Assembly (NCBI GenBank): GCA_902604855.1
Contig: CACLAF010000001.1
Location: 62,001 to 126,000, forward strand
Reading direction: 5' to 3'
DNA from: an uncultured SAR86 cluster bacterium
GTDB taxonomy: Bacteria > Pseudomonadota > Gammaproteobacteria > Magnimaribacterales > Magnimaribacteraceae
Length of the DNA stretch: 64,000 nucleotides
The notes under the pieces are model-generated. The model was given only the letters and a program-made list of their open reading frames with translations. It was not told where the DNA came from and ran no database searches. Position numbers and translations under genes: made by a program. Of this stretch, positions 9,518 through 25,540 are shown piece by piece (the stretch's first letter is position 1; each line of letters begins with the position of its first letter).

Positions 9518-11059
9518 CTAAAATATTTCAATAAGCTCTTTAAATATATTTTTTAGAATTATTCTCGTAGATTTGTATAAGCACAGATATATCATCCAAA
9601 TAATGAAGATCAATAAACCTAACGACAATACATTTACCACTAGCATAAAAAAGCCTTGAGATAATGTTCCTAAAAGAAGTGGTATGAAGTAATTTAATGA
9701 GATAAAAAGCATATAACTCAAACAAGATAAGCCTAAGAGCCTGTACAAAAATTCCTTATTAATAATAGATTCTTTTAACAGGAAGATAACTACAAATAGA
9801 GATGATAAGAGTCCAGAAATCATTTTTGCATAGGCTATAGATAGAATTCCTAATTGAGGATAATTAAACTCAAATAAAAATAAAAAAAGATAAAATGATA
9901 AAAAAGGTATTATTCCGAGGAGATATATTATTTTGGGTAATTCTAATGTTGTTGCTACCAAAGGACCTAAATTAACTAGTCCAAAAAAGAAGATCCCTAC
10001 TAATAGAATTTGAAAAATTTCTGAAGTAAGTAAGGATTCATTGCCCAACCATTGAAATATAAGTCCTTCTGAGCCTGGAACTAAAACCGTAGTAGTAGCC
10101 ATAAATAATGGAACAGTTACTATCACGATATAACTAAATTTTTCTTTGATATTCTCTTTGCCATCTTTACCTAAAAGACGATTCACATAACTCAAGAGAG
10201 GACTATAAATGATGGAGCTGAGTGTCCGAACGAAGTTCATTAGTGAAAATGCAAGTGCATACCATCCAACACTTTCCAAACTGTACAACTGAGAAGCAAC
10301 AATCAAGTCCATCTCATAGTAAAGAATGAATAGAACAGTTGAAAAAAGCGAACTGTATGCCAGCCCCTTCATTTTTCTGTAAGCTTGCTTTGAGAAACGA
10401 ATATACCTGTATAGTTTTTCGACTGGAAAGCTAAGAAAGTACTTTAAAAATGCTAGAGATAAAATAGTAGAGAATATTGAAAGCAAAATACTTGTAAGCA
10501 AATAATAGTCGAGTAAATACCCATTTTCAGTAAGAAATAAAGGTGCTATCAATATTTTTAGAGAATTGGCCACAATATCAAATCTTATTGCGATATATTC
10601 CTTTAGCCTCGACCCAAGAACTAGCATTACAAGTCTCTGTAAGATAACTTGGATTGGCATAAAAATTGCTGTGATAAAAAATAGATTCGAAGCAAGGTAA
10701 AGTTCTTCACCTGTAAGTTCAGTCAATAAAATTTGTGGTTTAAAAGAAACTATAAGCATAAGGAAAGAAAACGAGAAAGATAAAACTCCAAGTATTGCCA
10801 TCACAAAACCAACATATTTGAGTTCATTTCTTAATTCCCCTTTCCCAACTTCCTCAGCACAATATTTCTGCGCTGCTCCTAGAAAACCTAGATCACCGTA
10901 GGTCAAAAAAAAGCAAATGCTTCCCACAAATGCATATATTGCATATGCAGATACATCTTCAGCCAAAAATGGAATAACTATAAATATGGACGCAAAGCTT
11001 ACACAAAGGCCCATGATTCTATAAATATAAATACTCTTTATATTTTTTATATCTGACAT
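9518..11059 (-). CDS. wzx: Wzx-type polysaccharide flippase
   Basis: A 513-residue polytopic inner-membrane protein with about 12-14 hydrophobic helices separated by short basic loops, and of the normal length for Wzx of the MOP superfamily. The N-terminus (IYRIMGLCVSFASIFIVIPF) and the loop YGDLGFLGAAQKY resemble Wzx elements in which an acidic-glycine turn follows helix 2. It would flip undecaprenyl-diphosphate-linked repeat units to the periplasm for polymerisation and Wzz-controlled chain growth. It lies between the LIC12162-family gene and the PglF-like gene. Confidence 0.85.
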   Translation of the reverse strand: MSDIKNIKSIYIYRIMGLCVSFASIFIVIPFLAEDVSAYAIYAFVGSICFFLTYGDLGFLGAAQKYCAEEVGKGELRNELKYVGFVMAILGVLSFSFSFLMLIVSFKPQILLTELTGEELYLASNLFFITAIFMPIQVILQRLVMLVLGSRLKEYIAIRFDIVANSLKILIAPLFLTENGYLLDYYLLTSILLSIFSTILSLAFLKYFLSFPVEKLYRYIRFSKQAYRKMKGLAYSSLFSTVLFILYYEMDLIVASQLYSLESVGWYALAFSLMNFVRTLSSIIYSPLLSYVNRLLGKDGKENIKEKFSYIVIVTVPLFMATTTVLVPGSEGLIFQWLGNESLLTSEIFQILLVGIFFFGLVNLGPLVATTLELPKIIYLLGIIPFLSFYLFLFLFEFNYPQLGILSIAYAKMISGLLSSLFVVIFLLKESIINKEFLYRLLGLSCLSYMLFISLNYFIPLLLGTLSQGFFMLVVNVLSLGLLIFIIWMIYLCLYKSTRIILKNIFKELIEIF

Positions 11060-11090: not shown

Positions 11091-12767
11091 TTAAAATTGG
11101 GTAAAGTTATAAATCTCTTCTTCTGGTTGAGGTGATTTTCTACAGAAATTCTCGTTAAAAAATGATACCGCCTGTATCACTTCTTTGGTATTCCACCACT
11201 CCTCTACGTTATTCCATATGTTATTTATATGTAAAGAAGCAGAAATAGGAGAATCATGAAAAATACCGCATTTTTTTAGATCTTCATATACCCTATTGGA
11301 TATTTCATTCATTTCATTATTTTCTCTTCTAAAAAAAACTACAGTTGGCTTACCTGAAGATAAAGCCTTTACTATTGCTGTTTCGTTATAGGATATGACC
11401 AGTATTTTGGCTTTGTCCCAATATGGCTCTAAATTTTGAGCCCTATCTAAAAAATGAATCCGAGGTATCTTTTCTTTGATTTTCTCTTTTGCTATTGAAT
11501 AGCCCGATTCAGCTAACCTTACATTCAATAAAGATGAAGTTATCGGGTCCAGGTTATTTATAAAATCTATTTGATCATTTAAATATTCATCAGCATATTG
11601 TTCGTATGAAGGGATAGAGGCGAAATATTGAATATCGCTATCCACCTCTGTCAATATGAGTAATAAGGATGACTCATCTCCGATAATTCTTGATTTTTTA
11701 ATATGTAATTGGCAAAACCCTAAGAAATGTTTTTGAGAATATCCTTCCCATCCCCAAGTAAAATATCTATCACAAATTTCTAGTTCATGGTCATGGTAGT
11801 CACTATATAAATGATGCTCACCTCCATGACATAAAATACATAACTTAGTTCCCTCTTCTGTCTTTCTAGCAACATAGAATCTAAAGACTTCGTTATTTAC
11901 AGTCCAAGTTGTTAAAATTGTTTTAGGATTTTTGGGGAAGCTGCATTTTGAGGCTAAATCTTTTATTGAAGAGTACCCTTCCAAAATAGATTTGGGTATA
12001 TTCATGGCTATAAGACTAATGAGACACTCTTCTAAAGCATTTGATGAAATACCTCCCTCAGATAATGATTTCTCTAATTCTTTTCTCCTATTAAGATCAT
12101 AATCACATGAGGGGACAGAAAATGAATCATCAATAAAATAAGGAAGCTCCTTAAACCTGATCATCAACTTAAGTTTCAAATACCAATGAGTGTATGTTGA
12201 AATCATGACAACCTCTTTTTTTGATAAAAACCTCATTATTCTGAATACACTTATTACAGTCTTTTTCAAAAATGAAGATTGAACAACTTTCTCTGGACTT
12301 GGAGCGGTGCAGGAATGTTTTATTCTATTAAATTGGAAACCAAATTTTTTGGCCACCTCAGCAATAATAAACTGGTTCCAATGTGGCTTCCTAGAAATGG
12401 ATTCATATTCTGTTTGGTTGAGGGGAACAAAATTTTGGGGTTCTGAATTGGGAACATCCAAAGTAAGTGAATTTCTATTGGATATTTTCTCTATACATGT
12501 CCAGTAGTGAATGACTCTATTCATGAACAGTCTTAGCCAAGAACCGTATATGATTTCCCAATATCGTTTTGAAAAATTTTCGCCATGTTGTTTATTTAGT
12601 TCTGAAGATAGAATTTGTGAAAGTTTACGAAATAATTCATCTTTTTGTTTAAAAGCAATGAGTCTTGCTTTTCTATCGCTCCAAGGATCTTTGTGCATAT
12701 TATCAAGATTCTTAGGCTTGTTTTTTGAGATTAAGGATAAAATACTTTGGGTATCATCTAGTTTCAT
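11091..12767 (-). CDS. LIC12162-family putative transferase
   Basis: A 558-residue cytoplasmic protein that matches my memory of the LIC12162 family found in O-antigen loci. Supporting segments are YWEIIYGSWLRLFMNRVIHYW (written here as motif at about 68-88), CHGGEHHLYSDYHDHEL followed by CDRYFTWGWEG in the middle, and PTVVFFRRENNE plus a Trp-rich end. The family is only annotated as a putative transferase; a glycosyl or nonulosonate transferase role is plausible because these genes accompany sialic-like sugar genes. It stands between wzx and the remnant next to pseI. No signal peptide or membrane helix is visible. Confidence 0.75.
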   Translation of the reverse strand: MKLDDTQSILSLISKNKPKNLDNMHKDPWSDRKARLIAFKQKDELFRKLSQILSSELNKQHGENFSKRYWEIIYGSWLRLFMNRVIHYWTCIEKISNRNSLTLDVPNSEPQNFVPLNQTEYESISRKPHWNQFIIAEVAKKFGFQFNRIKHSCTAPSPEKVVQSSFLKKTVISVFRIMRFLSKKEVVMISTYTHWYLKLKLMIRFKELPYFIDDSFSVPSCDYDLNRRKELEKSLSEGGISSNALEECLISLIAMNIPKSILEGYSSIKDLASKCSFPKNPKTILTTWTVNNEVFRFYVARKTEEGTKLCILCHGGEHHLYSDYHDHELEICDRYFTWGWEGYSQKHFLGFCQLHIKKSRIIGDESSLLLILTEVDSDIQYFASIPSYEQYADEYLNDQIDFINNLDPITSSLLNVRLAESGYSIAKEKIKEKIPRIHFLDRAQNLEPYWDKAKILVISYNETAIVKALSSGKPTVVFFRRENNEMNEISNRVYEDLKKCGIFHDSPISASLHINNIWNNVEEWWNTKEVIQAVSFFNENFCRKSPQPEEEIYNFTQF

Positions 12768-12821: not shown

Positions 12822-13067
12822 TCAGCTGGCCTTCCACATGTCAGAGTAATATTCAATTCCATGAGTAAAATTATCCGTTTTGAAGCTTCTGACTATGTCA
12901 CCTATAATATTAGTTCCAGTTCCAGTGATGGAACAATTAAGTAAAGGTGCAAGCATTAATTTCTCAATCTTAAAAGAAGACATGGTTTTACCAATCATTT
13001 TCAAGAGTGGTTTTACTGATAACCTACTAGAAGTCATTCTAGCTTCAATTATTGCAACGAAACTCAT
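12822..13067 (-). pseudogene. Decayed N-terminal fragment of an SpsF-type cytidylyltransferase
   Basis: An 81-residue frame from ATG at 13067. Its start, FVAIIEARMTSSRL, matches the CTP-binding N-terminus of SpsF/CMP-sugar synthetase homologues, but the following LPGK reads SVKP and the protein ends after GIEYYSDMWKAS, where family members continue (YYRGSEDDVL) for another 150 or more residues. The rest of the 12768-12821 gap contains no recognisable continuation. An intact relative is the N-terminal half of the fusion gene at 16851-18884. It sits directly downstream of pseI. Read as a truncated, diverged duplicate; a short expressed protein cannot be excluded. Confidence 0.7.
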
Positions 13068-13106
13068 GATTTCTATCAAAATTTTTTTAAAACTATTATT
13101 TAAATC

Positions 13107-14156
13107 TTAGCTTTCTATTAAATCCCAAGAAGTTGCAGTTCCAATTTCAACGCGCTTTCTAACTTTCCTTCCCACTAAATCATCCTCAAATTTTGGAGGC
13201 AGACCGTAACCAGGCCTAATTCTTCTTATACTATCCTGAGTTATTACTTCACCAGCCTCAAGAGTCTTAACAAAGTAAACTGATCGGCGAAACTTAATAT
13301 TATCTTTTTCTACATCCTTACGTTCGTAGCCGGCCTGACCTAAAGACATCCACGCATCTTTTGTTTCCTTACACAAGCTCTCTAATTCATCTGGCATAAT
13401 AGAAAAAGAAGAATCAGGACCTTGATCGTTTCTATCTAAGATAAAGTGTTTTTCTATTACTGTTGCACCCATGGCAGTAGCCACAATAGATGCTGTATTG
13501 CTTGTAGTATGATCAGATAGACCAACTTGGCTCCCAAATCTTTTTTGTAAGTCCATAATAGTTAGAAGATTTGACTGATCTACAGGAGCTGGGTAACTGC
13601 TTATACAATGCAAAATAATTAAGTCTTCACAACCTTCGTCTCTAACAACAGTAACCAACTCTTCTATTTCCTCTAAATTAGCCATCCCAGTTGAAATAAT
13701 CAGGGGTTTTTTAGTCGAAGCAATGTATTTAATCAAAGGTAAATCTGTGGCTTCAAAAGAAGCAACTTTATAAGCAGGAGTATTGATATCTTCCAAGAGG
13801 TTAACTGCTGTTTCATCAAAAGGAGTTGAAAAGCATGTAATTCCAACTTCTTTAGCATGTTTAAACATTTCTTCATGCCAATCAAAAGGAGTTTGAGCTT
13901 CTTGATAGAGTTGATAAAGTTGGTACCCATCCCATAGTCCTCCTTTGATAATAAAATCTTCTTTATCGCAGTCTATTGTCATTGTATCTGCTGAATAAGT
14001 TTGTAACTTAATAGCGTCTGCCCCTCTTTTTTTTGCTTCGCTTATTGTGTCCAGAGCCTTATTTAAAAGACCATTATGATTTGCAGATAATTCAGCGATG
14101 ATATAAGGAGGATAATTTACTCCAATATTTCTTCCATCTATTGATATTTTTTTCAT
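13107..14156 (-). CDS. pseI: Pseudaminic acid synthase (NeuB family)
   Basis: Condenses a 6-deoxy-hexosamine derivative with phosphoenolpyruvate to a nine-carbon nonulosonic acid. The 349-residue protein has the N-terminal NeuB barrel with YIIAELSANHNG (18-29), ADAIKLQTYSADTMT, FIIKGGLWDGYQLY and FDWHEEMF, all PseI-like rather than NeuB-sialate-like, then GLSDHT and VIEKHF of the active site, and a C-terminal SAF (antifreeze-like) domain from about residue 285 (RSVYFVKTLEAGEVIT, RRIRPGYGLPPKF). A decayed second pseI start lies immediately upstream and an spsF fragment immediately downstream. Confidence 0.92.
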   Translation of the reverse strand: MKKISIDGRNIGVNYPPYIIAELSANHNGLLNKALDTISEAKKRGADAIKLQTYSADTMTIDCDKEDFIIKGGLWDGYQLYQLYQEAQTPFDWHEEMFKHAKEVGITCFSTPFDETAVNLLEDINTPAYKVASFEATDLPLIKYIASTKKPLIISTGMANLEEIEELVTVVRDEGCEDLIILHCISSYPAPVDQSNLLTIMDLQKRFGSQVGLSDHTTSNTASIVATAMGATVIEKHFILDRNDQGPDSSFSIMPDELESLCKETKDAWMSLGQAGYERKDVEKDNIKFRRSVYFVKTLEAGEVITQDSIRRIRPGYGLPPKFEDDLVGRKVRKRVEIGTATSWDLIES

Positions 14157-14205
14157 GAATCTCTTATATTTAAATTGATATTCTATTGACTAGTTTAACA
14201 AAAGA

Positions 14206-14392
14206 TCATTCTTGAAAGACTCGAAAGTTATCAGGCGTATAAGTTTGTATCTTAAATGCAATAGTACCTAAACTCTCAATAGTTAAGATTGTCTTCTTGA
14301 CTAGCCGAATGGCCTCCTTGGTTTGCAAATAATGCAGTCACAATAAAGAGCTCTTTGCCTATGCCAATTATTCTATTTGTAACTGCAAACAT
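14206..14392 (-). pseudogene. Decayed N-terminal fragment of a second pseI
   Basis: The 251-base gap between the GNAT gene and pseI holds a broken NeuB/PseI start. From ATG at 14392 the frame reads RIIGIGKELFIVTALFANQGG, aligning with the PseI segment ...FIIAELSANHNG, and stops at 14276. In the next frame, from 14280 to a stop at 14206, it reads TIAFKIQTYTPDNF, aligning with DAIKIQTYTPD of PseI. The two pieces are colinear, separated by a frameshift and a deletion of about 15 residues. Catalytic AEL-SANH is degraded to TAL-FANQ. The match is to the family motif by eye, over about 45 residues. Confidence 0.7.
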
Positions 14393-14407
14393 TTGAAACT
14401 TCCCAAC

Positions 14408-15280
14408 CTATATTTTGTAAGAAACTTGAATTGGTATAGAATCTAATTGAAGCAAGATCTCATTTAACTTTTCATTTCCGCTAGGGACATTGATGAAAAA
14501 ATATGGTGCAACCTTAGATTTAACCTCCTTGTTCGGCTTAAATTCCTCACGGATGTAATTCAAAACCTCTGAAACAATAAATATAGAAGGCTCTAAAATA
14601 TTCAGTCCAATAGAGTTGTCTTCTTGAAGGTAGAAAGTACCAATAGGATAATCGTCCTCAAAAATTATCGCCCAGTGTCTATAAGTATGAGTCTTCACAA
14701 ATACTTTATGATCATCTTTTGTGGGAGTTTTAGAGTGGCTAATTGAATGAACTCGTTGCGAGAGAAGATCAAATAGCAAATCTGTATCATTTTCATCGAC
14801 CTCTTTAAATAGGATTTCCTTATCACACTTAACTAACATAATCACATCAGCTTTTGACAAGATTTCTTGGAATCCCAAAGATTTGAAAATCTTTAAACTT
14901 GCTATGTTTTCTGGTTTGATTTTAGCTAATAAGTCGCATTGCTGGTTATTCTGAAAAAATTTGATACTGGAAGCTAAAAATCTCTTACCAAAACCACTTC
15001 CTCTGCTCTTAGGATTCATATTAATCGATACTTCCACCATCCCATTTTTCTTATTAACGTCAAATCTACAGACACCTATTTTCAATGAACCCACCTCTCC
15101 AATATATAATTTTCGTTCAGAGTTATTAAGCGAAGAGTTAAACCAATCTTTATGTTCTTTGTATGATGGAATGGAGCTACTAAAAAACATAGATAGACTT
15201 ATAGGGTCTCTTAACCAAATATAAATATCTTCGCAATCTCTTCTTGTAGCTGCTCTTATGTTAATTTTTTTATCACACAT
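14408..15280 (-). CDS. Two-domain GNAT acetyltransferase (PseH-like N-terminus)
   Basis: A 290-residue protein. Residues 1-135 are a GNAT domain: RAATRRDCEDIYIWLRDP at the start, EVSINMNPKSRGSGFGKRFL as the acetyl-CoA loop (RGSGFGK fits R/QxxGxG/A), and ENIASLKIFKSLGF as the closing motif. This resembles PseH, which N-acetylates the 4-amino group of the UDP-sugar made by PseC. Residues about 150-290 form a second domain (THTYRHWAIIFEDDYPIGTFYL) that looks like another GNAT fold but lacks the acetyl-CoA loop. The gene overlaps the formyltransferase gene by 25 bases; GAGG lies four bases before its ATG. Confidence 0.8.
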   Translation of the reverse strand: MCDKKINIRAATRRDCEDIYIWLRDPISLSMFFSSSIPSYKEHKDWFNSSLNNSERKLYIGEVGSLKIGVCRFDVNKKNGMVEVSINMNPKSRGSGFGKRFLASSIKFFQNNQQCDLLAKIKPENIASLKIFKSLGFQEILSKADVIMLVKCDKEILFKEVDENDTDLLFDLLSQRVHSISHSKTPTKDDHKVFVKTHTYRHWAIIFEDDYPIGTFYLQEDNSIGLNILEPSIFIVSEVLNYIREEFKPNKEVKSKVAPYFFINVPSGNEKLNEILLQLDSIPIQVSYKI

Positions 15281-15921
15281 GCTACCTCAATCGTGTCACC
15301 TACAAGTTCAGCGTTGCTAAATTCCATTTTAATTTTGTCATAGGTGATGAAGGCGTTAGGATAATCTTCATGATCAACCATCCTGATTCGATCGTAGATT
15401 TCTTCTAGATTCAATCCTGTCTGTATCTCGTTATCTGTAATTTTCAGCCTTTTAAAAATATGGGGTTCACCGCACTGAGGAGAAGCATTTGGATTATCGG
15501 TAGTTATCTCAACTATTAGATCATTTATCGCATCATTAATTCTTAAAAGAATTTCTTCAAGTTTCCCGGCTAAACTGACATTAGTAGATGCATATATTGG
15601 GCCTGCGTCCAGTTCATCTATCATCTTGATCGCGCAAACTGGAGCCTCTTCAAAGCCTTCCAAAATTAGATTTTGAATTGGACTACCGCCGCGCCCATAC
15701 GGCAATGGAGCGGTATGGAATACAACACAATTGAAATTCTCGTGAATTTCTTTTCTTACAATCCAATTCCAATGTGTAAAGAACACATAATCGGGATTAA
15801 ATTCCTCTAATGCTTCAACCGTAAGATCTGATTCATCTTTAAAGTAATTAACAAAATGGCCGTCACTTATTGATGGTTTAAGCTTGAACCAATTTTTAGA
15901 GGAACAAATCGCAATTCGCAT
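15256..15921 (-). CDS. Sugar N-formyltransferase (Fmt-like)
   Basis: A 221-residue formyltransferase-fold protein. FHTAPLPYGRGGSPIQNLI (about 88-106) matches the Fmt/ArnA His-containing loop, and MIDELDAGPIY carries the catalytic Asp; the usual N before the His (NxH) reads C-V-V-F-H. It should transfer a formyl group from N10-formyltetrahydrofolate to a sugar amine. Between a deacetylase gene and a GNAT gene in a nonulosonate cluster it most likely makes an N-formyl variant of the 5,7-diamino sugar. Base composition looks richer in G+C than neighbours. Substrate is inferred. Confidence 0.8.
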   Translation of the reverse strand: MRIAICSSKNWFKLKPSISDGHFVNYFKDESDLTVEALEEFNPDYVFFTHWNWIVRKEIHENFNCVVFHTAPLPYGRGGSPIQNLILEGFEEAPVCAIKMIDELDAGPIYASTNVSLAGKLEEILLRINDAINDLIVEITTDNPNASPQCGEPHIFKRLKITDNEIQTGLNLEEIYDRIRMVDHEDYPNAFITYDKIKMEFSNAELVGDTIEVACVIKKLT

Positions 15922-15922
15922 T

Positions 15923-16600
15923 TTAACGTTCTATCTTTCTTATTACTTCAAATGCTTCAGCCAGGTTACAGCCAATTTGATTACCTCTTAGTTTAGCTAG
16001 ATTCTTAATCCCTTCAATTGATCTGCTATGAGGATAATCGCGCATCTCGGCGCTGTAAGCTTTTAATGCCCGCTCTTTTGAAGTCCATTCACGAGTTATA
16101 TCTACGAACAAATTTGGGGTAAATGTTCCTGTTATAGAGGGATTTCCATAATCAGTAGCCGATGCGACTTCAAACAATCTTAATTCTGTGCATCTTTCAT
16201 TTGGCTGAGGTCTAAAAGCTGTTAATACCGCATTTGCTACGACCTTATGATCAACATTTAAATCAGAGCCGCAATGAGTATAGACGAGTGTAGGTTCATA
16301 TTTAGACTTAGCTTTTTCAACAGCTTTCACGACCTCAATTAGGGGATATGAATCCATCGCATTATCATTAAAGTCGTAGCAATCGCCCCATTTGAATCCC
16401 AACTCTTTACTTACATCTTTCGATGAAATTTTTCTTCGATTTACGTCGTCGATATTTGAGTCATCGCGCGCGCCGACACCATCGGTCATCGAAACGACAA
16501 AAACCTCATCGCCTTTTGCTACATGTTTAATTAGTGTCCCCGCCATTGATATAGTCTCATCATCAGAATGAGCAACAACTACCAATACAATTTCCGTCAT
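15923..16600 (-). CDS. PIG-L family zinc deacetylase
   Basis: A 225-residue PIG-L/LmbE enzyme that would remove an N-acetyl group from an amino sugar. The zinc motif VVAHSDDETISMAGTL (8-23) is intact (AHxDDE), with the third ligand in DLNVDHKVVANAV (about 113-125, His118), and TDGVGARDDSN near 40. It starts in an overlap with the stop of a decayed PIG-L fragment and ends one base before the formyltransferase gene. The stretch 16440-16510 is noticeably G+C-rich (ATCGCGCGCGCC), unlike the rest of the cluster, which hints at acquisition from another genome. Confidence 0.88.
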   Translation of the reverse strand: MTEIVLVVVAHSDDETISMAGTLIKHVAKGDEVFVVSMTDGVGARDDSNIDDVNRRKISSKDVSKELGFKWGDCYDFNDNAMDSYPLIEVVKAVEKAKSKYEPTLVYTHCGSDLNVDHKVVANAVLTAFRPQPNERCTELRLFEVASATDYGNPSITGTFTPNLFVDITREWTSKERALKAYSAEMRDYPHSRSIEGIKNLAKLRGNQIGCNLAEAFEVIRKIER

Positions 16601-16851
16601 TGCTTCTTCCTATGTTCAGCAAAAGATATAGAATTTACACCTAGTATCTTTAAAGCTGATTTTGAAGAGTTCTTATTAAATTCTAGTTTTTTAATGAGGT
16701 ATTGCATTCTATCTCTCGAAGGTAGCCCAACAGTCATAAAAAATAGATCAGTAAAGTTAGTTTTCTTAGAAAATTTAACTAACGTCCCACCGCATCCAAG
16801 CACTTGACCATAAGTGTGGGCAACTAAAAAAACTAAAATATTTTTTTTCAT
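16597..16851 (-). pseudogene. Truncated PIG-L deacetylase remnant without zinc ligands
   Basis: An 84-residue frame from ATG at 16851, which shares one base with the stop of the upstream fusion gene. NILVFLVAHTYGQVLGCGG aligns with the PIG-L start (AAHPDDEVLGCGG), so the metal-binding PDDE has become TYGQ while the flanks are kept. FMTVGLPSRD and SALKILGVNSISFAEHRK also follow the family, but the protein then ends, about 135 residues short. The stop overlaps the start of the intact PIG-L gene. Best read as a dying paralogue that still preserves coupling between its neighbours; a non-catalytic small partner protein is the alternative. Confidence 0.7.
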
Positions 16852-18884
16852 CAATTTAATCTCTTAAAGCCAGTGTGACATACTTCGCCTTCGAGTAGAA
16901 AATTTATATCTTTTCCATTCTCACATTCACTAATCAATCCAAATATCGGGTCTAGGGCATCAAAATAATTTTGAATCAGATCAGGAGAATGACAAATAGA
17001 AGCATAGGTACTATTCGAGGCCAAGAAGCCTTTTTTTAACATCTCTTGTGTAACAAGAGTTTTATATTTTGTAGCAGAGGGGCCACTAAAAGAGTAACCA
17101 GTCAGAGAAGGAATACCCCAACTGCTTATAGCTAATTTATGTTTCTCAGCTAGTTCCTCGATACCTTTTCTTATTTTCTTTCCTATTTCAGTTATTCTTT
17201 CCCATGAACGCTCTCTTTCCATTATTTCTAGCGTTTTTAAAGCGGCAGTAGGACCAATTCTCTCTGTCCAAAAAGTACTACTAATAAAAGTATTTTGGGC
17301 CGCTTCCATAACTTCCTTCCTACCTAATATAGCAGTGATAGCATATCCATTACCCATTGCCTTTCCAAACATTGCGACATCTGGCTCTACTTGATACTTT
17401 ATATGTATTCCTCCAAAGGTCTCTCTAAAACCTGAAGTACACTCGTCAAAAATTAAAACTATTCCATTGTCAGTAGCAAGTTTTCTGACTTTTTTTAAAA
17501 AATTATCTTCAGGGCCCACATTTCTAACTACTTCCATTTTTATGACGCCAATATTTTTATCATTTACGAGCATCTCTAGTTCTTCGAAGTTGTTATATTC
17601 AAAAGGAAAGACAGTATTACGAAGATTAGCAGGGACTCCATTTGGAGTTAAGCCAGGGAGGAGATGTTCGCTTAACCCATCTTTTGTTTCGCTATTTAAA
17701 TTCACAGACAGATACCAGTCATGCCATCCATGATAACCGCACACAGCAACATTATCTTTGCCGGAACAAGCTCTAGCTATTCTAATGGCTATGGCATTTG
17801 CCTCCCCTCCAGAACGTGCAAACTTAACCATATCAAACCAAGGGTGCATATCTACCAACTTCTCGGCCAAATACACCTCCTCCGGACAGTTAAGTGAAGA
17901 CATATTTCCAGAGTTAATTGTGTTTGAAACAGCTTTGTCAACTTCAGAATTTCCATAACCTAAAATGTTTGTTCCTATGCCCATAATCGACATATCAAAA
18001 TATTTGTTACCATCTAGGTCCCACACTTGGCAACCTTTAGATTTCGAAAAATATGAAGGCCATTTACCAGGTAAAAACATTTCTGGCCTTTTAGAGAGAA
18101 GCATATTCCCACCAGGTATGATTTTCTTGGCACGTTTATAAAGATTCTGCCCTGTTCTCGTTATTGATCCTTCATTTCTATTAAATTTTTTATTTACTAA
18201 AAAAACTTGAGGATTTGCTTGTTGATATTCTAAAACTCGCTTCCAATTGAAATGTATATCATTTTTAAAGTGATTGAAGATATTTTCTATTAATTCATAG
18301 TCTTCAGGTTCATCCAGAGTCCAACGTAAATTAGAAAAGTCCTCATCACTTATTATATTCAGTTTACTAAACTGATCTGAATTTCTTATGTAAGGCGTAA
18401 CATGCTCTCTATCAGAATCTTTTACAGCTTCAAGATTAGCAATTTCCAAAGCTTTTCTAGAGAATACTTCTACATCCAGGCCATCAGGATAGGTTGCCGG
18501 CATAACATTGCTGCAATAATCAACTTCAGAATCAAAAAATTTTGCAACAACTTCATCAATTAAATTGGGATCAATTAATGGGCAATCTCCTGTTATTCTT
18601 AAAATAACATCGGCATTATGCTCCTTCGCAGCAAAATGAAAACGACCTAAAACATCATTCTCTTCACCCAAAACCACATTAAATCCAATCTCCCTTAAAT
18701 GATCACTAAGTATTATATTTTCTGAAGTGTCTGGTATAGCCACTATTATGGAGTCAACATAATTTGCTTTTGACAAACGTAAGAGCAATAACTCGATTAT
18801 GGATTTATCAGCTATGGACTTTAAAACCTTTCCTGGCAATCTAGTCGATCCCATCCTAGCCTGGACGATTGCAACTGTCTTCAT
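16851..18884 (-). CDS. Fusion: SpsF-type CMP-sugar synthetase + class III aminotransferase
   Basis: A 677-residue two-enzyme protein. Residues 1-235 are a cytidylyltransferase: VQARMGSTRLPGK (7-19), GEENDVLGRF, RITGDCPLIDP, DREHVTPY, RWTLDEPEDY. Residues about 245-677 are a PLP enzyme of the glutamate-1-semialdehyde aminotransferase type: RSGGEAN (357-363), YHGWHDW (384-390), DECTSGFR (480-487) and the PLP lysine in FGKAMGNGY (Lys508). ATG at 18884 is preferred, with GGAG six bases ahead and an ATGA overlap with the aldo/keto reductase stop; the upstream TTG at 18896 is less likely. The first half can serve as the CMP-nonulosonate synthetase of the block; the role of the aminotransferase is open. 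Confidence 0.85.
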   Translation of the reverse strand: MKTVAIVQARMGSTRLPGKVLKSIADKSIIELLLLRLSKANYVDSIIVAIPDTSENIILSDHLREIGFNVVLGEENDVLGRFHFAAKEHNADVILRITGDCPLIDPNLIDEVVAKFFDSEVDYCSNVMPATYPDGLDVEVFSRKALEIANLEAVKDSDREHVTPYIRNSDQFSKLNIISDEDFSNLRWTLDEPEDYELIENIFNHFKNDIHFNWKRVLEYQQANPQVFLVNKKFNRNEGSITRTGQNLYKRAKKIIPGGNMLLSKRPEMFLPGKWPSYFSKSKGCQVWDLDGNKYFDMSIMGIGTNILGYGNSEVDKAVSNTINSGNMSSLNCPEEVYLAEKLVDMHPWFDMVKFARSGGEANAIAIRIARACSGKDNVAVCGYHGWHDWYLSVNLNSETKDGLSEHLLPGLTPNGVPANLRNTVFPFEYNNFEELEMLVNDKNIGVIKMEVVRNVGPEDNFLKKVRKLATDNGIVLIFDECTSGFRETFGGIHIKYQVEPDVAMFGKAMGNGYAITAILGRKEVMEAAQNTFISSTFWTERIGPTAALKTLEIMERERSWERITEIGKKIRKGIEELAEKHKLAISSWGIPSLTGYSFSGPSATKYKTLVTQEMLKKGFLASNSTYASICHSPDLIQNYFDALDPIFGLISECENGKDINFLLEGEVCHTGFKRLN

Positions 18885-19750
18885 AGCGAACTCCAATTTG
18901 ATGGATTTATTAGATTCATATCACCGCAACCTATTTCTGGAAAATTATGCTGATATTTTTTTACACTCATGACTTCAATTATTTGTTCAAGCTGATTAAG
19001 ACTGTCAACACCCACGACAATTTTATCAATAAGTTTGTAGGATCTTACGAAATTGAGAGAAGCTTCTAGGGCAGACAATGAATTATCTTCCAACCAATCA
19101 TGCCACTCAGTCCAAATTTTACTCCATTTATTGAATTTTTCAGGTAAATTTTCTCTTTGCATTAACAAAAGGCCTTGGAGAAATATTGATCTGGTATGCA
19201 CCTCAATTTTTTCTTTTTTTAATTTATCCAACCAACCAGTCTCAACTAGTCGGCGATCAATTAGATTGAAAGGACTCTGAATAATATCAAAGTTGTAAAT
19301 TGACAATATCTCTTCTAACTCATTTGGGTCGTAGATGGAAATACCAAGCTTCTCAAACTTTGCTAGTTTTTTTTGATTAATTAACGACTCAAATATTTCA
19401 GAACCTATAGGACCTAATAATTGTTCGGGTCTGTGCAGCATTACGGCATATAATTTTTTATAATTTAGACGATTTAAAGATAATTCAACCTGTTCGCTTA
19501 ACCACAAGTTTATATCAGGACAAGACTCAGGAACGGAAGGTATCTTAGTGATAATTTTTAAATTTTTAACACCAATATCCCCTAATAACTTTTCGCTATC
19601 ACCATAATTCATTGCTGTGTCTATCGTGTGAATACCCTTAGCCTTACATAAGTAAAGAATATTCTTTGCTTCTTCAAAAGCAACCTGTCCTGTCTTATTT
19701 GAAATTCCATAATCCTGCCCGAATTGAGCGGTACCAAGAGCTATATTCAT
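18881..19750 (-). CDS. Aldo/keto reductase
   Basis: A 289-residue AKR, presumably NADPH-dependent. The catalytic tetrad residues are visible: Asp and Tyr in IDTAMNYGDSE (43-53), Lys in KIITKIP, and His in VMLHRPEQ. LGTAQFGQDYG at the start and the late VVGVDSLNQLEQI (C-terminal cofactor loop) fit the family. It is coupled on both sides by 4-base ATGA overlaps, to pseC upstream and to the cytidylyltransferase-aminotransferase fusion downstream, so it very likely acts in the same nonulosonate pathway, for example oxidising or reducing a carbonyl before transamination. That role is inferred. Confidence 0.85.
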   Translation of the reverse strand: MNIALGTAQFGQDYGISNKTGQVAFEEAKNILYLCKAKGIHTIDTAMNYGDSEKLLGDIGVKNLKIITKIPSVPESCPDINLWLSEQVELSLNRLNYKKLYAVMLHRPEQLLGPIGSEIFESLINQKKLAKFEKLGISIYDPNELEEILSIYNFDIIQSPFNLIDRRLVETGWLDKLKKEKIEVHTRSIFLQGLLLMQRENLPEKFNKWSKIWTEWHDWLEDNSLSALEASLNFVRSYKLIDKIVVGVDSLNQLEQIIEVMSVKKYQHNFPEIGCGDMNLINPSNWSSL

Positions 19751-20910
19751 ATTGTTTCTAAAGAGGCAACTAAAGCTTCTATTACTTTGTCTTGGTCTGC
19801 TAAGGAGAGATTAGTGTACATAGGTAAGCTTATTGCTTCTGAGTAGTATTTTTCAGATTCGGGAAAGTCTCCGTAATTGAATCCCTTATTTTTATAGAAT
19901 GGATGAATATGTATTGGTATGTAGTGCAAATTCACACCAATCTCAAGTCTTCTTAAATTTTCAAAGACCTCCCTATGAGACATATCTATTTCATTAAGTT
20001 TTAATCTAATTACATAGAGGTGAACAGCTGAATATGAATTTGGCGAGTGATAAGGAACTTTCAAAGGTAAATCTTTTAGAAAATCATCATATCTGCCTGA
20101 TATCTCGTGCCTCTTTTTTACATAGCTTTTTAATCTACTTAATTGTGATAGTCCTAGAGAGGCTTGAATATCGGTCATTCTATAGTTGTACCCTAAAGAG
20201 AGCTGTTGATAATACCAAGGCCCATGAGATGAACCTGACATTTGACTCTCTTCTCTAGTAATGCCGTGACTTCTGTGTAGCGACATGTTTTTTGCTAGGA
20301 CAGGATCATTTGTAAGAGCGGCACCACCTTCACCTGTAGTAATGATTTTAACTGGATGGAAACTGAAAACTGTAATGTCTGAATATTTGCAATTTCCTAT
20401 GGGTTCTCCTTCGTAATACCCTCCCACTGCGTGAGAAGCATCTTCAATTATTCTTACACTATATTTGTCACAAAGCTTCTTGATTTTACTCATTTCACAA
20501 GATTGGCCCGAAAGATGCACTGGTATAAGTACCTTCGGCAGTTTATTATTTAAGTTGGCTTGGATGAGCTTTTCTTCGAGCTTGATGGGGCACATATTAT
20601 TAGTCAGGGGATCTATATCAACTAAATCTACACTCGCTCCACAATATATCCCTACATTGGCAGAAGCTACAAAAGTTATTGGTGAAGTCCATAACCAATC
20701 ACCTTCTTTAAGCCCTAATGCCATGCAAGCAATGTGTAGTGCTGAAGTTGCGCTATTTACTGCCAGAGCGTATTTAGAATTACTTATTTCTGCAAGGGCA
20801 TTTTCAAACTCAGGAACCTTAGGTCCTTGAGTTAGAAAATCTGACTTTAGCACTTCAATCACAGCATCAATATCTTCTTTTGTAATATCCTGCTTACCAT
20901 ATGGAATCAT
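19747..20910 (-). CDS. pseC: UDP-4-keto-6-deoxy-AltNAc aminotransferase
   Basis: PLP enzyme of the DegT/DnrJ/EryC1 group that aminates C4 of the PseB product. The 387-residue protein has GKQDITKEDIDAVIEVLKSD at the start, TQGPKVPEFE, VNSATSALHIA, EDASHAVGG and the PLP lysine Lys188 in SFHPVKIITTGEGG; GYNYRMTDIQASLG and LHYIPIHIHPFY are typical of PseC. It lies six bases after pseB and overlaps the aldo/keto reductase gene by ATGA. This is the committed second step of pseudaminic acid synthesis. Confidence 0.93.
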   Translation of the reverse strand: MIPYGKQDITKEDIDAVIEVLKSDFLTQGPKVPEFENALAEISNSKYALAVNSATSALHIACMALGLKEGDWLWTSPITFVASANVGIYCGASVDLVDIDPLTNNMCPIKLEEKLIQANLNNKLPKVLIPVHLSGQSCEMSKIKKLCDKYSVRIIEDASHAVGGYYEGEPIGNCKYSDITVFSFHPVKIITTGEGGAALTNDPVLAKNMSLHRSHGITREESQMSGSSHGPWYYQQLSLGYNYRMTDIQASLGLSQLSRLKSYVKKRHEISGRYDDFLKDLPLKVPYHSPNSYSAVHLYVIRLKLNEIDMSHREVFENLRRLEIGVNLHYIPIHIHPFYKNKGFNYGDFPESEKYYSEAISLPMYTNLSLADQDKVIEALVASLETI

Positions 20911-20916
20911 AATCTT

Positions 20917-21930
20917 TTAAACCTCAAAATTTGAATCTATATGCATTTTTATTAGTTTTCGCAGACTTTCAACTGTTTCCCACGAGTCATTGGTTGAAGA
21001 GTTATATTTGAAGCCAAACGGTACTTTGGATCCATTGTGATGTGTCAAAAAATCTTTCTCGGTATGAACAAATGAAACGGAGGGTAGAATGGCAAAATAA
21101 GATCCTAAATCAATAGTATTGAGTGAGTCGGTTTCAGTTATCATTTCTTCATGCACCTTCTCGCCAGGCCTGATACCGATAATATCTGTTTTACATCCAG
21201 GTGCGATCGCTTTGGCCACATCTAGAATTCTGTAAGATGGGATTTTTGGCACAAAAATTTCTCCACCTATATGTCTTTTCAAGGCATACAAGACCATGTC
21301 AACCCCGTCCTGAAGTGAAATATTAAATCTAGTCATCTCAGGGTGAGTAATTGGTAAGACGCCACTACTCTTATTTTTCAAAAAAAATGGAATTACTGAC
21401 CCTCTCGATCCCATGACATTACCATAACGAACGACACTGAATTTTATATCTTTGGAGCCCTTTATATTATTTGCAGCAATAAAAAGTTTATCGGACACAA
21501 GTTTAGTTGCACCATATAGATTAATTGGTGCACACGCCTTATCTGTAGACAAAGCAACCACATCTTTCACTCCACTCTCTAATGCACTCCTGATAACATT
21601 TTCTGCACCATTTACATTTGTTTTAATACATTCAGAAGGATTGTATTCAGCAGTATCCACTTGTTTTATAGCTGCAGCATGGATAATTATATCAACGCCC
21701 TCACTTGCCATCTTTAGACGATTAAAATCTCTTACATCTCCTATAAAGAAACGTAATTGAGGGAATTTTTCTTCAGGATATTTTTGCTTCATATCCGACT
21801 GTTTAAGCTCATCTCTTGAAAAGATAATCAATTTTTTTATTAACGGATAATTCTCTAGTATTGTATCAATAAATTTCTTTCCAAAAGATCCTGTGCCTCC
21901 GGTAATAAGCACTACCTTGTCATTAAACAT
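20917..21930 (-). CDS. pseB: UDP-GlcNAc 4,6-dehydratase (inverting)
   Basis: Dehydrates UDP-GlcNAc and inverts C5, giving UDP-2-acetamido-2,6-dideoxy-L-arabino-hex-4-ulose. The 337-residue soluble SDR has GGTGSFG (11-17), HAAAIKQVDTAEYNP (a PseB/FlaA1 hallmark), STDK (128-131) and the catalytic YGATK (Tyr139, Lys143), plus RYGNVMGSRGSVIPFF and GEKVHEEM. Unlike the PglF-like enzyme at 8181 it has Tyr in the active site. First gene of the nonulosonate block, 38 bases after wecC. Confidence 0.95.
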   Translation of the reverse strand: MFNDKVVLITGGTGSFGKKFIDTILENYPLIKKLIIFSRDELKQSDMKQKYPEEKFPQLRFFIGDVRDFNRLKMASEGVDIIIHAAAIKQVDTAEYNPSECIKTNVNGAENVIRSALESGVKDVVALSTDKACAPINLYGATKLVSDKLFIAANNIKGSKDIKFSVVRYGNVMGSRGSVIPFFLKNKSSGVLPITHPEMTRFNISLQDGVDMVLYALKRHIGGEIFVPKIPSYRILDVAKAIAPGCKTDIIGIRPGEKVHEEMITETDSLNTIDLGSYFAILPSVSFVHTEKDFLTHHNGSKVPFGFKYNSSTNDSWETVESLRKLIKMHIDSNFEV

Positions 21931-24592: not shown

Positions 24593-25540
24593 TTAAGAGG
24601 GATCGTGTAATGTATTGATAGTTTTGTAGTGCCTATAGAGAACGTATAAAGAAATTATAATTCCACCAAGTAAAGTTGCAAGAATAACGATAAGGGATCG
24701 ACTAGGTTTTGATTTTTTTTCAGGGACAAATGGCGGCTCTAACAAAATCAGACTATATTCCTCGTGAATACTCGCCATCATACGTGTTTCAAGTTGAGCT
24801 TCTATTAATTGGTTAATAGATTTCTTTATTTCAACTAAAGAGGTTTGGGAAAGTTCCTTCTTTAAATAAGATATAGCTTTACTAGAACTAATGATATCGA
24901 TTTCACGATTTAAGTTATTTGCCTCTCTAATGATTAGTGATAAAAACTCTTTTGCAAAAACAGGAGAGATATGCTCAACTGAAAGGAAAATTAATCCCGT
25001 TTTTTCATCACGTGAGATGGTTAACATTTCACCAATATAAACTTCATGGGCTTCGAGGTAGGAAGGTTTTTGAGTTTTTCCAGTACCGGGTTCAATAGTC
25101 CATTTTTGACTTGATTCGTCATAAACTTCAGGATCATAAGCAATTTTTTTTGAATTTTTGTCATATCTTTCCGCAGCCATAATTGATGGCAAAATATTCT
25201 CAAATGTAATCAAGTGTTTTACAAATTCTCTAGATTGAATTATCTCCATTACTTCGTATACACCAGAATTCCCGGAATCAGAGAGGTTTATGCCCATCAT
25301 AGAAGTCAATCCAGAGTATTGAGAGAGTAATCCAGAATCTTGAGAATCTCGGGAAATCAAAACAGACTCCGAGCTGTAAAAATTGGAAAGGGATAATGCA
25401 TATATGATTGAACAAATCGCGACTATAATTGAGAATATAGAAATTAAAATTTTTTCTTTCCAGAGGACTTTGATTAATTCTTGCAAGTCAACCTCATCGT
25501 CATAAAGAGAGGTATTTAATTTATCTTTATTTAAACTCAT
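24593..25540 (-). CDS. wzz: Wzz-type polysaccharide chain-length regulator
   Basis: An inner-membrane co-polymerase of 315 residues. A short cytoplasmic N-terminus (DDEVDLQELIKVLWKEK) leads to a first membrane helix at about 31-51, then a large periplasmic part with coiled-coil character (220-260), then the proline-rich stretch PPFVPEKKSKPSR and a second helix at about 282-303 with a short basic tail. This is the PCP1 layout. It governs modal length of the polymer made by Wzy. It starts in an ATGA overlap with the EPS-associated regulator gene, so both are made from one transcript. Confidence 0.88.
   Translation of the reverse strand: MSLNKDKLNTSLYDDEVDLQELIKVLWKEKILISIFSIIVAICSIIYALSLSNFYSSESVLISRDSQDSGLLSQYSGLTSMMGINLSDSGNSGVYEVMEIIQSREFVKHLITFENILPSIMAAERYDKNSKKIAYDPEVYDESSQKWTIEPGTGKTQKPSYLEAHEVYIGEMLTISRDEKTGLIFLSVEHISPVFAKEFLSLIIREANNLNREIDIISSSKAISYLKKELSQTSLVEIKKSINQLIEAQLETRMMASIHEEYSLILLEPPFVPEKKSKPSRSLIVILATLLGGIIISLYVLYRHYKTINTLHDPS

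Follow-up and report, generated by a model that had tools for sequence, protein, structure and literature searches.

A SAR86 operon with a conserved reductase–cytidylyltransferase–aminotransferase module suggests C8 amination of a pseudaminic acid-type sugar

A minus-strand operon at positions 13107–21930 of the window (the whole 64,000-nucleotide stretch of SAR86 DNA analysed) encodes, in order, PseB, PseC, an aldo/keto reductase (AKR), a fusion of an SpsF-type cytidylyltransferase with a class III aminotransferase (AT3), a PIG-L-type deacetylase, an Fmt-like transferase, a GNAT protein and PseI (Table 1). The pseC and AKR genes overlap by 4 bases, AKR and the fusion by 16 (or by 4, if the fusion begins at ATG 18884 and not at TTG 18896) and the Fmt-like and GNAT genes by 25, while PIG-L lies 1 base from the Fmt-like gene. 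Within the fusion polypeptide, CTP_transf_3 covers residues 8–217 and Aminotran_3 residues 283–589. PseB, PseC and PseI all score above their NCBIfam equivalog cut-offs, and beside them AKR, SpsF and AT3 are intact—a set that we define here as a module. The initial annotation of this DNA had named pseB, pseC and pseI, and these scores bear it out, as do Pfam domains for the AKR, fusion, PIG-L and Fmt-like genes that it placed alongside them. Yet the range that it assigned to the cluster, 12822–18884, omits pseB, pseC and nearly all of the AKR gene, and its inventory, though real in every gene named, passed over the GNAT gene and three decayed fragments (of PIG-L, SpsF and, weakly, NeuB type).

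Table 1. Genes and decayed fragments of the operon, with positions in the window and the matches on which each assignment rests.
Feature	Position	Strand	Match
pseB, UDP-GlcNAc 4,6-dehydratase (5-inverting)	20917..21930	-	TIGR03589, 522 bits vs cut-off 408
pseC, C4 aminotransferase (N becomes N7)	19747..20910	-	TIGR03588, 552 bits vs cut-off 424
AKR, proposed C8 alcohol/ketone oxidoreductase	18881..19750	-	PF00248
SpsF-type cytidylyltransferase + class III aminotransferase (AT3) fusion; proposed CMP activation and C8 amination	16851..18896	-	PF02348, PF00202
Decayed N-terminal fragment, PIG-L type, second such gene	about 16597..16863	-	43.8 bits, E 2e-12, model positions 3-85 of 233
PIG-L-type N-deacetylase	15923..16600	-	PF02585
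Fmt-like transferase, 1ZGH type; proposed N-formyl/other one-carbon transferase	15256..15921	-	PF00551 + PF21553; 1zgh_A 175.6 bits
GNAT N-acetyltransferase, GNAT-like C-terminal second half	14408..15280	-	PF13302; Foldseek GNAT matches
Decayed N-terminal fragment, NeuB/PseI type (weak)	about 14206..14392	-	13.1 bits, E 0.003
pseI, nonulosonate synthase	13107..14156	-	TIGR03586, 494 bits vs cut-off 340
Decayed N-terminal fragment, SpsF type	about 12822..13106	-	26.8 bits, E 1.9e-7

The operon shares PseB, PseC and PseI with the canonical PseB-C-H-G-I-F pathway, and it differs in having activation by an SpsF-type enzyme and AKR, AT3, PIG-L and Fmt-like genes in addition. The best PseG match in the source genome (83% complete) scores 22.8 bits against a cut-off of 153.6 and none passes, so that in this incomplete genome one textbook step stands without an enzyme; PseG was likewise absent above cut-off from 20 other genomes with PseG-less clusters (hand-picked, 20 of the 37 PseI loci without PseG). 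The GNAT protein resembles PseH weakly (35.5 bits, below the cut-off of 93.1), and in its predicted model (pLDDT 82) our reading of the strand and helix order suggests that the C-terminal half may form a second GNAT-like unit. Across the same genome, PF02348 matches are limited to the fusion (98.8 bits), the SpsF remnant (26.8 bits) and one partial match elsewhere (29.9 bits).

The AKR-SpsF-AT3 set is a conserved module. Among the best 80 of 132 relatives (a choice that favours close relatives, and with counts from HMMs built, as for fragment detection, from those same loci and leaving out domains below 60 bits), 76 loci had AKR no more than 9 kb from AT3, and in 68 it lay close upstream; SpsF occurred in 73, and PseI, PseC and PseB in 69, 64 and 59, respectively. 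In the 65 loci whose flanking sequence reached 4 kb or more upstream and 3 kb or more downstream, the corresponding counts were 64 for AKR, 62 for SpsF, 59 for PseI, 58 for PseC and 54 for PseB. SpsF was fused to AT3 in 33 of the 80 best loci, encoded by a separate gene of the same locus in 40 and not found in 7. In all, 12 phylum-level groups are represented in the AT3 tree, and loci of SAR11, SAR86 and Prochlorococcus are present among the same 80. The neighbourhood comparison that the initial annotation had proposed thus finds the same genes recurring jointly in unrelated organisms, more than chance would give. Other parts of the clusters are more fluid: the acyl-modifying neighbours vary (GNATs, Fmt, ATP-grasp, carbamoyltransferase) while AKR-AT3 stays constant, and an archaeal plasmid carries a Gfo/Idh/MocA oxidoreductase gene upstream of its SpsF-like and AT3 genes. 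Four loci (L027, L033, L051 and L065) keep PseB and the module with no PseC, L033 having an RmlD-type reductase after PseB, and the module therefore does not require a C7 amine from PseC.

Candidate catalytic residues are retained in both module enzymes. In the AKR (75 rows above 200 bits, window included), Asp44, Tyr49 and Lys69 occur in 75/75 rows and His106 in 73/75. A comparison of the window AKR with a collection of phage records gave no match. The AT3 part has its candidate PLP lysine, Lys272, and Asp244 in all 81 rows. Its closest solved structures are glutamate-1-semialdehyde (GSA) aminomutases (2hoy, 5e-41), and it also resembles the aminopentol aminotransferase 6hbs (6e-37), an enzyme for substrates with a CH3-CH(NH2)-CH(OH)- terminus. 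Against TIGR00713 (HemL, GSA aminomutase) it scores 192 bits, below the cut-off of 527, and against PRK06209, also a GSA aminomutase model and the nearest among the NCBIfam matches listed (best 25 of 75), 248 bits vs 486.

The PIG-L and Fmt-like genes form a second pair. PIG-L keeps His11, Asp13 and Asp14 in 19/19 rows and His118 in 20/20. Fmt occurs in 14 of the 18 loci with PIG-L vs 3 of the 51 others (Fisher p 1e-8), or 5 of 51 when a second formyltransferase family is included (p 2e-7), related loci being counted as independent in both tests. Because the two genes co-occur, N-formylation of the product is plausible. The active site of methionyl-tRNA formyltransferase is an N-H-D triad; the Fmt-like family has His69 and Asp105 in 20/20 rows but no Asn at the N-x-H position in any of the 20, which leaves formyl transfer as such uncertain, and the protein scores 40.6 bits against TIGR00460 (methionyl-tRNA formyltransferase; cut-off 201.5).

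We propose, with a probability of roughly 0.6, that the operon directs synthesis of a 5,7,8-triamino nonulosonic acid in CMP-activated form (an 8-amino-8-deoxy pseudaminic acid), destined for a surface polysaccharide of the Wzx/Wzz type, a reading in which the substrates, the C8 site, the order of steps and the formyl group are inferred. Calculated residue masses are 316.1271 for Pse5Ac7Ac, 315.1430 for its 8-amino and 357.1536 for its 8-acetamido counterpart, and 343.1379 for a triamino sugar bearing one formyl and two acetyl groups. PseB and PseC would yield UDP-4-amino-4,6-dideoxy-AltNAc, which the GNAT domain (or the Fmt-like enzyme) would acylate at N4; some further enzyme would release the sugar from UDP, and PseI would condense it with PEP. 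AKR may then oxidise the C8 hydroxyl of the Pse-type nonulosonate, and since C9 is a methyl group the product of this oxidation would be a methyl ketone. Methyl ketones are typical substrates of class III (omega) transaminases, and AT3 would aminate the C8 ketone, with CMP activation carried out by the SpsF domain of the fusion. AKRs usually act as reductases, which counts against the proposed route, where this one is predicted to run in the oxidative direction. PIG-L would strip one N-acetyl group, perhaps at the N5 that derives from GlcNAc, and a one-carbon acyl group, probably formyl, would be put in its place by the Fmt-like enzyme. The initial annotation had foreseen an N-formylated, possibly additionally aminated nonulosonate: its amination part is well supported, though indirectly, by the conserved module and by a natural 8-amino nonulosonate and an AKR-SpsF precedent at C8 (both discussed below), and its formyl part stays plausible but unproved.

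The proposed oxidation and amination at C8, with CMP activation, have a chemical parallel in Kdo8N synthesis in Shewanella, where, with KdnA/KdnB, the C8 hydroxyl is oxidised and transaminated before CMP activation. The likeness is by analogy: the substrate there is Kdo, which has eight carbons and a primary alcohol at C8, and the enzymes belong to families other than AKR and AT3. Closer in product is the O-polysaccharide of Flexibacter (Tenacibaculum) maritimus, for which the available text describes 8-amino-3,5,7,8,9-pentadeoxy-manno-nonulosonic acid acylated at N5 and N7, with the C8 configuration left open and the L series tentative (PMC3210612). Its carbon skeleton and amination pattern are those predicted here, whereas it differs in bearing a 3-hydroxybutyryl group, which that text assigns to N5 in one sentence and to N7 in another (PMC3210612). 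No gene content for this 8-amino sugar emerged from the available portions of work on marine LPS or on T. maritimum, among them the genome paper of that species.

Closer in genes are the flagellin glycosylation islands of Aeromonas, in which the order pseB-pseC-keto reductase-pseF-class III aminotransferase-pseG-pseI was catalogued in 2021, with reductase and aminotransferase gained or lost jointly, pseG missing from subgroups ID and IE and a deacetylase in some islands (PMC7874193, from the text available). By that text description, the Group I polar flagellin islands share the present gene order, and the lack of pseG matches ID and IE; they differ in having pseF and the aminotransferase as separate genes, no Fmt listed and a flagellar location, whereas here we find a fusion, an Fmt-like gene and a polysaccharide locus. 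The arrangement is thus already on record, whereas the initial annotation knew of no described pathway with this enzyme set. Section 16 and the Discussion of that paper give the pair no function, our literature search for AKR, class III aminotransferase and the Pse pathway met the pair only there (as far as the sources were available), and it found no paper assigning this gene set to 8-amino nonulosonate synthesis. In A. hydrophila AH-1, the available text reports a flagellin sugar with a nominal mass of 403 Da; an odd value of this kind would fit the presence of a third nitrogen, although the authors' top formula, C19H32O9, is nitrogen-free and speaks otherwise.

A direct precedent for SpsF and AKR at C8 comes from Acinetobacter baumannii prophages, where, in the text available, EpaA (CTP_transf_3 + Aldo_ket_red) with the dehydrogenase EpaB converts Pse5Ac7Ac to its 8-epimer, by NMR (PMC12053666); a similar SpsF-AKR protein and dehydrogenase accompany a PseAc2 isomer in Vibrio B9-25K2 (PMC7371886, likewise). 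These systems make it conceivable that the present module merely alters C8 stereochemistry, with AT3 in a side role. However, in EpaA SpsF is fused to AKR, the partner is an SDR and the 8-epimer gains no nitrogen (PMC12053666), whereas here SpsF is fused to an aminotransferase with conserved catalytic residues, AKR is separate and no EpaB-type SDR occurs among the operon's genes, and we regard epimerisation as very improbable. The same low standing falls to a reading of AT3 as an aminomutase: AKR would first make the 8-ketone and AT3 would then move the amine from C7 to C8, giving a 7-hydroxy-8-amino sugar. Its nearest solved and modelled relatives fit such a role, but AT3 scores far under both aminomutase cut-offs, the F. 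maritimus sugar, as described in the text available, bears N7 and N8 together, and in the four PseB loci without PseC that enzyme supplies no C7 amine to shift.

More probable than either, though still unlikely, is that AKR and AT3 act elsewhere—at C4 of the nonulosonate, on an open-chain hexose before PseI or on an amino-acyl donor used afterwards to modify N5 or N7. The wide variation of acyl-modifying neighbours would suit this, but AKR-AT3 stays constant as those genes change, the presence of SpsF in 73 of the 80 best AT3 loci and its fusion in 33 point to the nonulosonate stage, and the known 8-amino sugar and the action of EpaA, from the sources available, indicate C8. Least probable of all, by a little, is synthesis of ordinary Pse5Ac7Ac with the extra genes as passengers or in decay; three decayed fragments in the operon and the lack of a PseG above cut-off are in its favour, and against it the extra genes are intact, their catalytic residues are conserved (the Fmt Asn excepted) and the gene set recurs across phyla.

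More tentatively, and at somewhat less than even odds, the C8-amination reading may extend beyond this operon, with AKR-SpsF-AT3 serving as a widespread cassette, so far without an assigned function, that acts on nonulosonic acids with more than one kind of backbone (the Pse type and, where PseC is replaced by a reductase, 7-hydroxy types). It would do so in both bacteria and archaea, SAR11 and Prochlorococcus among them, in many cases independently of PseG, and the product here would also be N-formylated after de-N-acetylation.

Family names alone would have given pseudaminic acid synthesis, a glutamate-1-semialdehyde aminomutase and a methionyl-tRNA formyltransferase, and if the proposal is true nonulosonate structure would be predicted more accurately from genes. 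Genes would also be assigned to the orphan sugar of a fish-pathogen O-antigen, and the question of what replaces PseG is raised. A third amine would then be predicted on nonulosonates in many Bacteroidota and in certain marine cells of high abundance (SAR11, SAR86 and Prochlorococcus). Adding a basic amine to an acidic sugar would alter the charge of the cell surface and may affect how phages and lectins recognise it.

The minus-strand operon runs in the order pseB, pseC, AKR (an aldo/keto reductase gene), a fusion of an SpsF-type cytidylyltransferase with a class III aminotransferase (AT3), a PIG-L fragment, an intact PIG-L gene, an Fmt-like gene, a GNAT gene, a NeuB fragment, pseI and an SpsF fragment, with PseB, PseC and PseI exceeding their equivalog cut-offs. 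The genome that contains it comprises 1.36 Mb in 24 contigs and is 83% complete. The setting looks like a surface-polysaccharide locus, in which glycosyltransferases and epimerases accompany a Wzz gene and a likely flippase. Since relatives of the LIC12162-family transferase occur in six module loci among the best 80 of 132 (L025, L027, L028, L032, L037, L099), this transferase may handle the operon's nonulosonate.

Features of the operon and its surroundings in the window
Feature	Position	Strand	Remarks
Operon, pseB to pseI	21930 to 13107	minus	
Wzz gene	24593-25540		
Likely flippase	9518-11059		membrane protein by reading; no Pfam match
LIC12162-family transferase	11091-12767		just downstream of pseI
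Fmt-like gene	15256-15921		
PIG-L-type N-terminal remnant	16600-16863	minus	43.8 bits
NeuB/PseI-type N-terminal remnant, weak	14209-14337	minus	13.1 bits, E 0.003
SpsF-type N-terminal remnant	12825-13106	minus	26.8 bits

With the fusion as query, 132 relatives were found and the best 80 taken further; neighbouring genes were called, grouped, annotated via representatives and scored against models derived from these very loci. Among these 80 (and among the 65 well-covered loci, i.e., those with at least 4 kb upstream and at least 3 kb downstream of AT3), AKR lay no more than 9 kb from AT3 in 76 (64), and SpsF was present in 73 (62), PseI in 69 (59), PseC in 64 (58) and PseB in 59 (54). AKR ended within 1.2 kb upstream of AT3 in 68 of the 80, and L094 was the sole well-covered locus without it. 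SpsF and AT3 formed a single protein in 33 loci and SpsF was a separate gene in 40; it was not found in the other 7 of the 80. The gene observation of the initial annotation is correct and holds more broadly than stated. The AT3 tree (81 rows) covers 12 phylum-level groups and requires five changes for Bacteroidota and six for Pseudomonadota, counts that alone are no proof of transfer. Searched against 60 related genomes, the fusion scored >180 bits only in one from another family of the order (G060), where matches covered both halves at 44% and 43% identity. A Roseobacteraceae plasmid has the order pseB-pseC-AKR-GNAT-hypothetical-fusion-pseG-pseI, its AKR and fusion bearing generic annotation only.

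Extra amination of the nonulosonate is likely (probability about 0.6), and we infer C8 as its site; the reading first proposed, an N-formylated, possibly additionally aminated product, points the right way, with formylation possible. Because PseB-derived sugars carry a methyl group as C9, oxidizing C8 would yield a methyl ketone of the kind that class III transaminases typically accept, and AT3 would then transaminate it. C8 is favored because a natural 8-amino nonulosonate has been described: 8-amino-3,5,7,8,9-pentadeoxy-manno-nonulosonic acid is a constituent of the O-polysaccharide of Flexibacter maritimus, where N5 and N7 bear an acetyl and a 3-hydroxybutyryl group (the review gives conflicting placements), the C8 configuration is left undefined and the L series is tentative (PMC3210612). 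It is also favored because EpaA (SpsF plus AKR) works there, inverting C8 of Pse together with EpaB, by NMR (PMC12053666); an EpaA-like protein accompanies a PseAc2 isomer in Vibrio B9-25K2 (PMC7371886).

The module (AKR-SpsF-AT3) persists in four loci with PseB and without PseC, versus 54 with both, which argues that it is independent of the PseC-derived C7 amine. These four (L027, L033, L051, L065), from Pelagibacteraceae and other Alphaproteobacteria, have the module alongside PseB and a NeuB/PseI-family synthase; in L033 an RmlD-type reductase follows PseB, and L051 carries a carbamoyltransferase and an ATP-grasp protein. On a Halorussus archaeal plasmid (L106, 7877-11127), a Gfo/Idh/MocA oxidoreductase immediately precedes an SpsF-like gene (annotated as a glycosyltransferase family protein) and AT3, an arrangement that suits an alcohol-to-ketone step by another enzyme family. 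A NeuB-family gene lies ~8 kb from these module-like genes.

Catalytic residues of the individual enzymes are conserved, apart from an Asn in the Fmt-like protein. In AKR, Asp44, Tyr49 and Lys69 were kept in 75/75 rows and His106 in 73/75, the usual AKR tetrad, and AT3 retained Lys272 and Asp244 in 81/81. Solved relatives of AT3 include GSA aminomutases, an aminopentol aminotransferase (6hbs) and further class III enzymes; the substrate end of aminopentol aminotransferase is CH3-CH(NH2)-CH(OH)-, which C9-C8-C7 of the proposed product would resemble. PIG-L has conserved residues of metal-site type, and its closest solved structures are diacetylchitobiose deacetylases and LmbE/BshB proteins. The Fmt-like protein matched 1zgh, named a methionyl-tRNA formyltransferase, at 175.6 bits, far above other Fmt, ArnA and VioF entries. 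Its His69 and Asp105 are invariant (n = 20 rows), but the canonical Asn preceding the His is substituted in all 20, so formyl transfer is not to be assumed; putative N-formylation is possible, and 1zgh, the nearest solved member of this Asn-less formyltransferase-like family, may be misnamed. The GNAT protein (290 residues) had full-length matches, among fetched loci, only in four Prochlorococcus proteins (39–43% identity, or 39–41% in a separate alignment); its structure model (pLDDT 82) matched GNAT enzymes, and by our reading of the strand/helix order its C-terminal half resembles a further GNAT fold.

The acyl genes between AT3 and PseI are interchangeable from locus to locus and include PseG (on its own or as a GNAT fusion), GNAT pairs, formyltransferases of the Fmt-like and other types, PIG-L, and an SDR-phosphoesterase-ATP-grasp set. 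Across the 69 PseI loci (among the best 80 of 132), Fmt occurred in 14 of 18 loci with PIG-L versus 3 of 51 without (p 1e-8), or 5 of 51 when a second formyltransferase family was counted (p 2e-7), and PseG never accompanied one GNAT family (0/32 PseG loci versus 19/37 others, p 8e-7), all p-values being guides only because the loci are related. The PseG-excluding GNAT family is of Acetyltransf_4 type (e.g., L062:12069-12629), and it and PseG frequently fill the same slot ahead of a second GNAT. A trio of SDR, YfcE-like phosphoesterase and ATP-grasp recurs in Bacteroidota clusters (L036, 13131-15475; similar in L068, L071, L081, L083, L087) and perhaps attaches an amino-acyl group. Within the window, a six-frame search with family models built from module loci recovered three remnants. 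The PIG-L remnant shares 4 bases with each of two intact genes, the fusion and PIG-L. As traces, the three remnants suggest the replacement of an earlier or second set of nonulosonate genes.

The initial annotation knew of no described pathway with this enzyme set. The gene pair is in fact already in print for Aeromonas, as a keto reductase and class III aminotransferase, with no function assigned in that paper's section 16 or Discussion; its printed counts sum to 90 and 6 of 96 (PMC7874193). The functional assignment, the 8-amino-sugar link, the cross-phylum breadth and the PseG-less character were not found stated together in searches of an open-access library. In A. hydrophila AH-1, pseB and pseI are required for polar flagella, and the flagellin sugar is of 403 Da, with some fragments one unit off those of Pse5Ac7Ac9Ac (PMC4691044). 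This odd mass is compatible with three nitrogens (e.g., C16H25N3O9, calculated 403.159), though only as a hint, because the authors' top formula is C19H32O9. The Group II strain AH-3 carries a sugar of even mass (376.14 Da).

No PseG exceeded its cut-off in the window's genome (83% complete), nor in any of 20 genomes chosen from the 37 PseI loci without PseG (L039, L043, L044, L045, L053, L058, L062, L066, L068, L071-L073, L079, L081-L083, L086, L087, L089, L092), several being single-cell or metagenome assemblies that may be incomplete; both chosen positive controls passed. Aeromonas subgroups ID and IE likewise have no PseG ortholog (PMC7874193). With 0/20 above the cut-off, such module genomes should hydrolyze the UDP-sugar in some other way.
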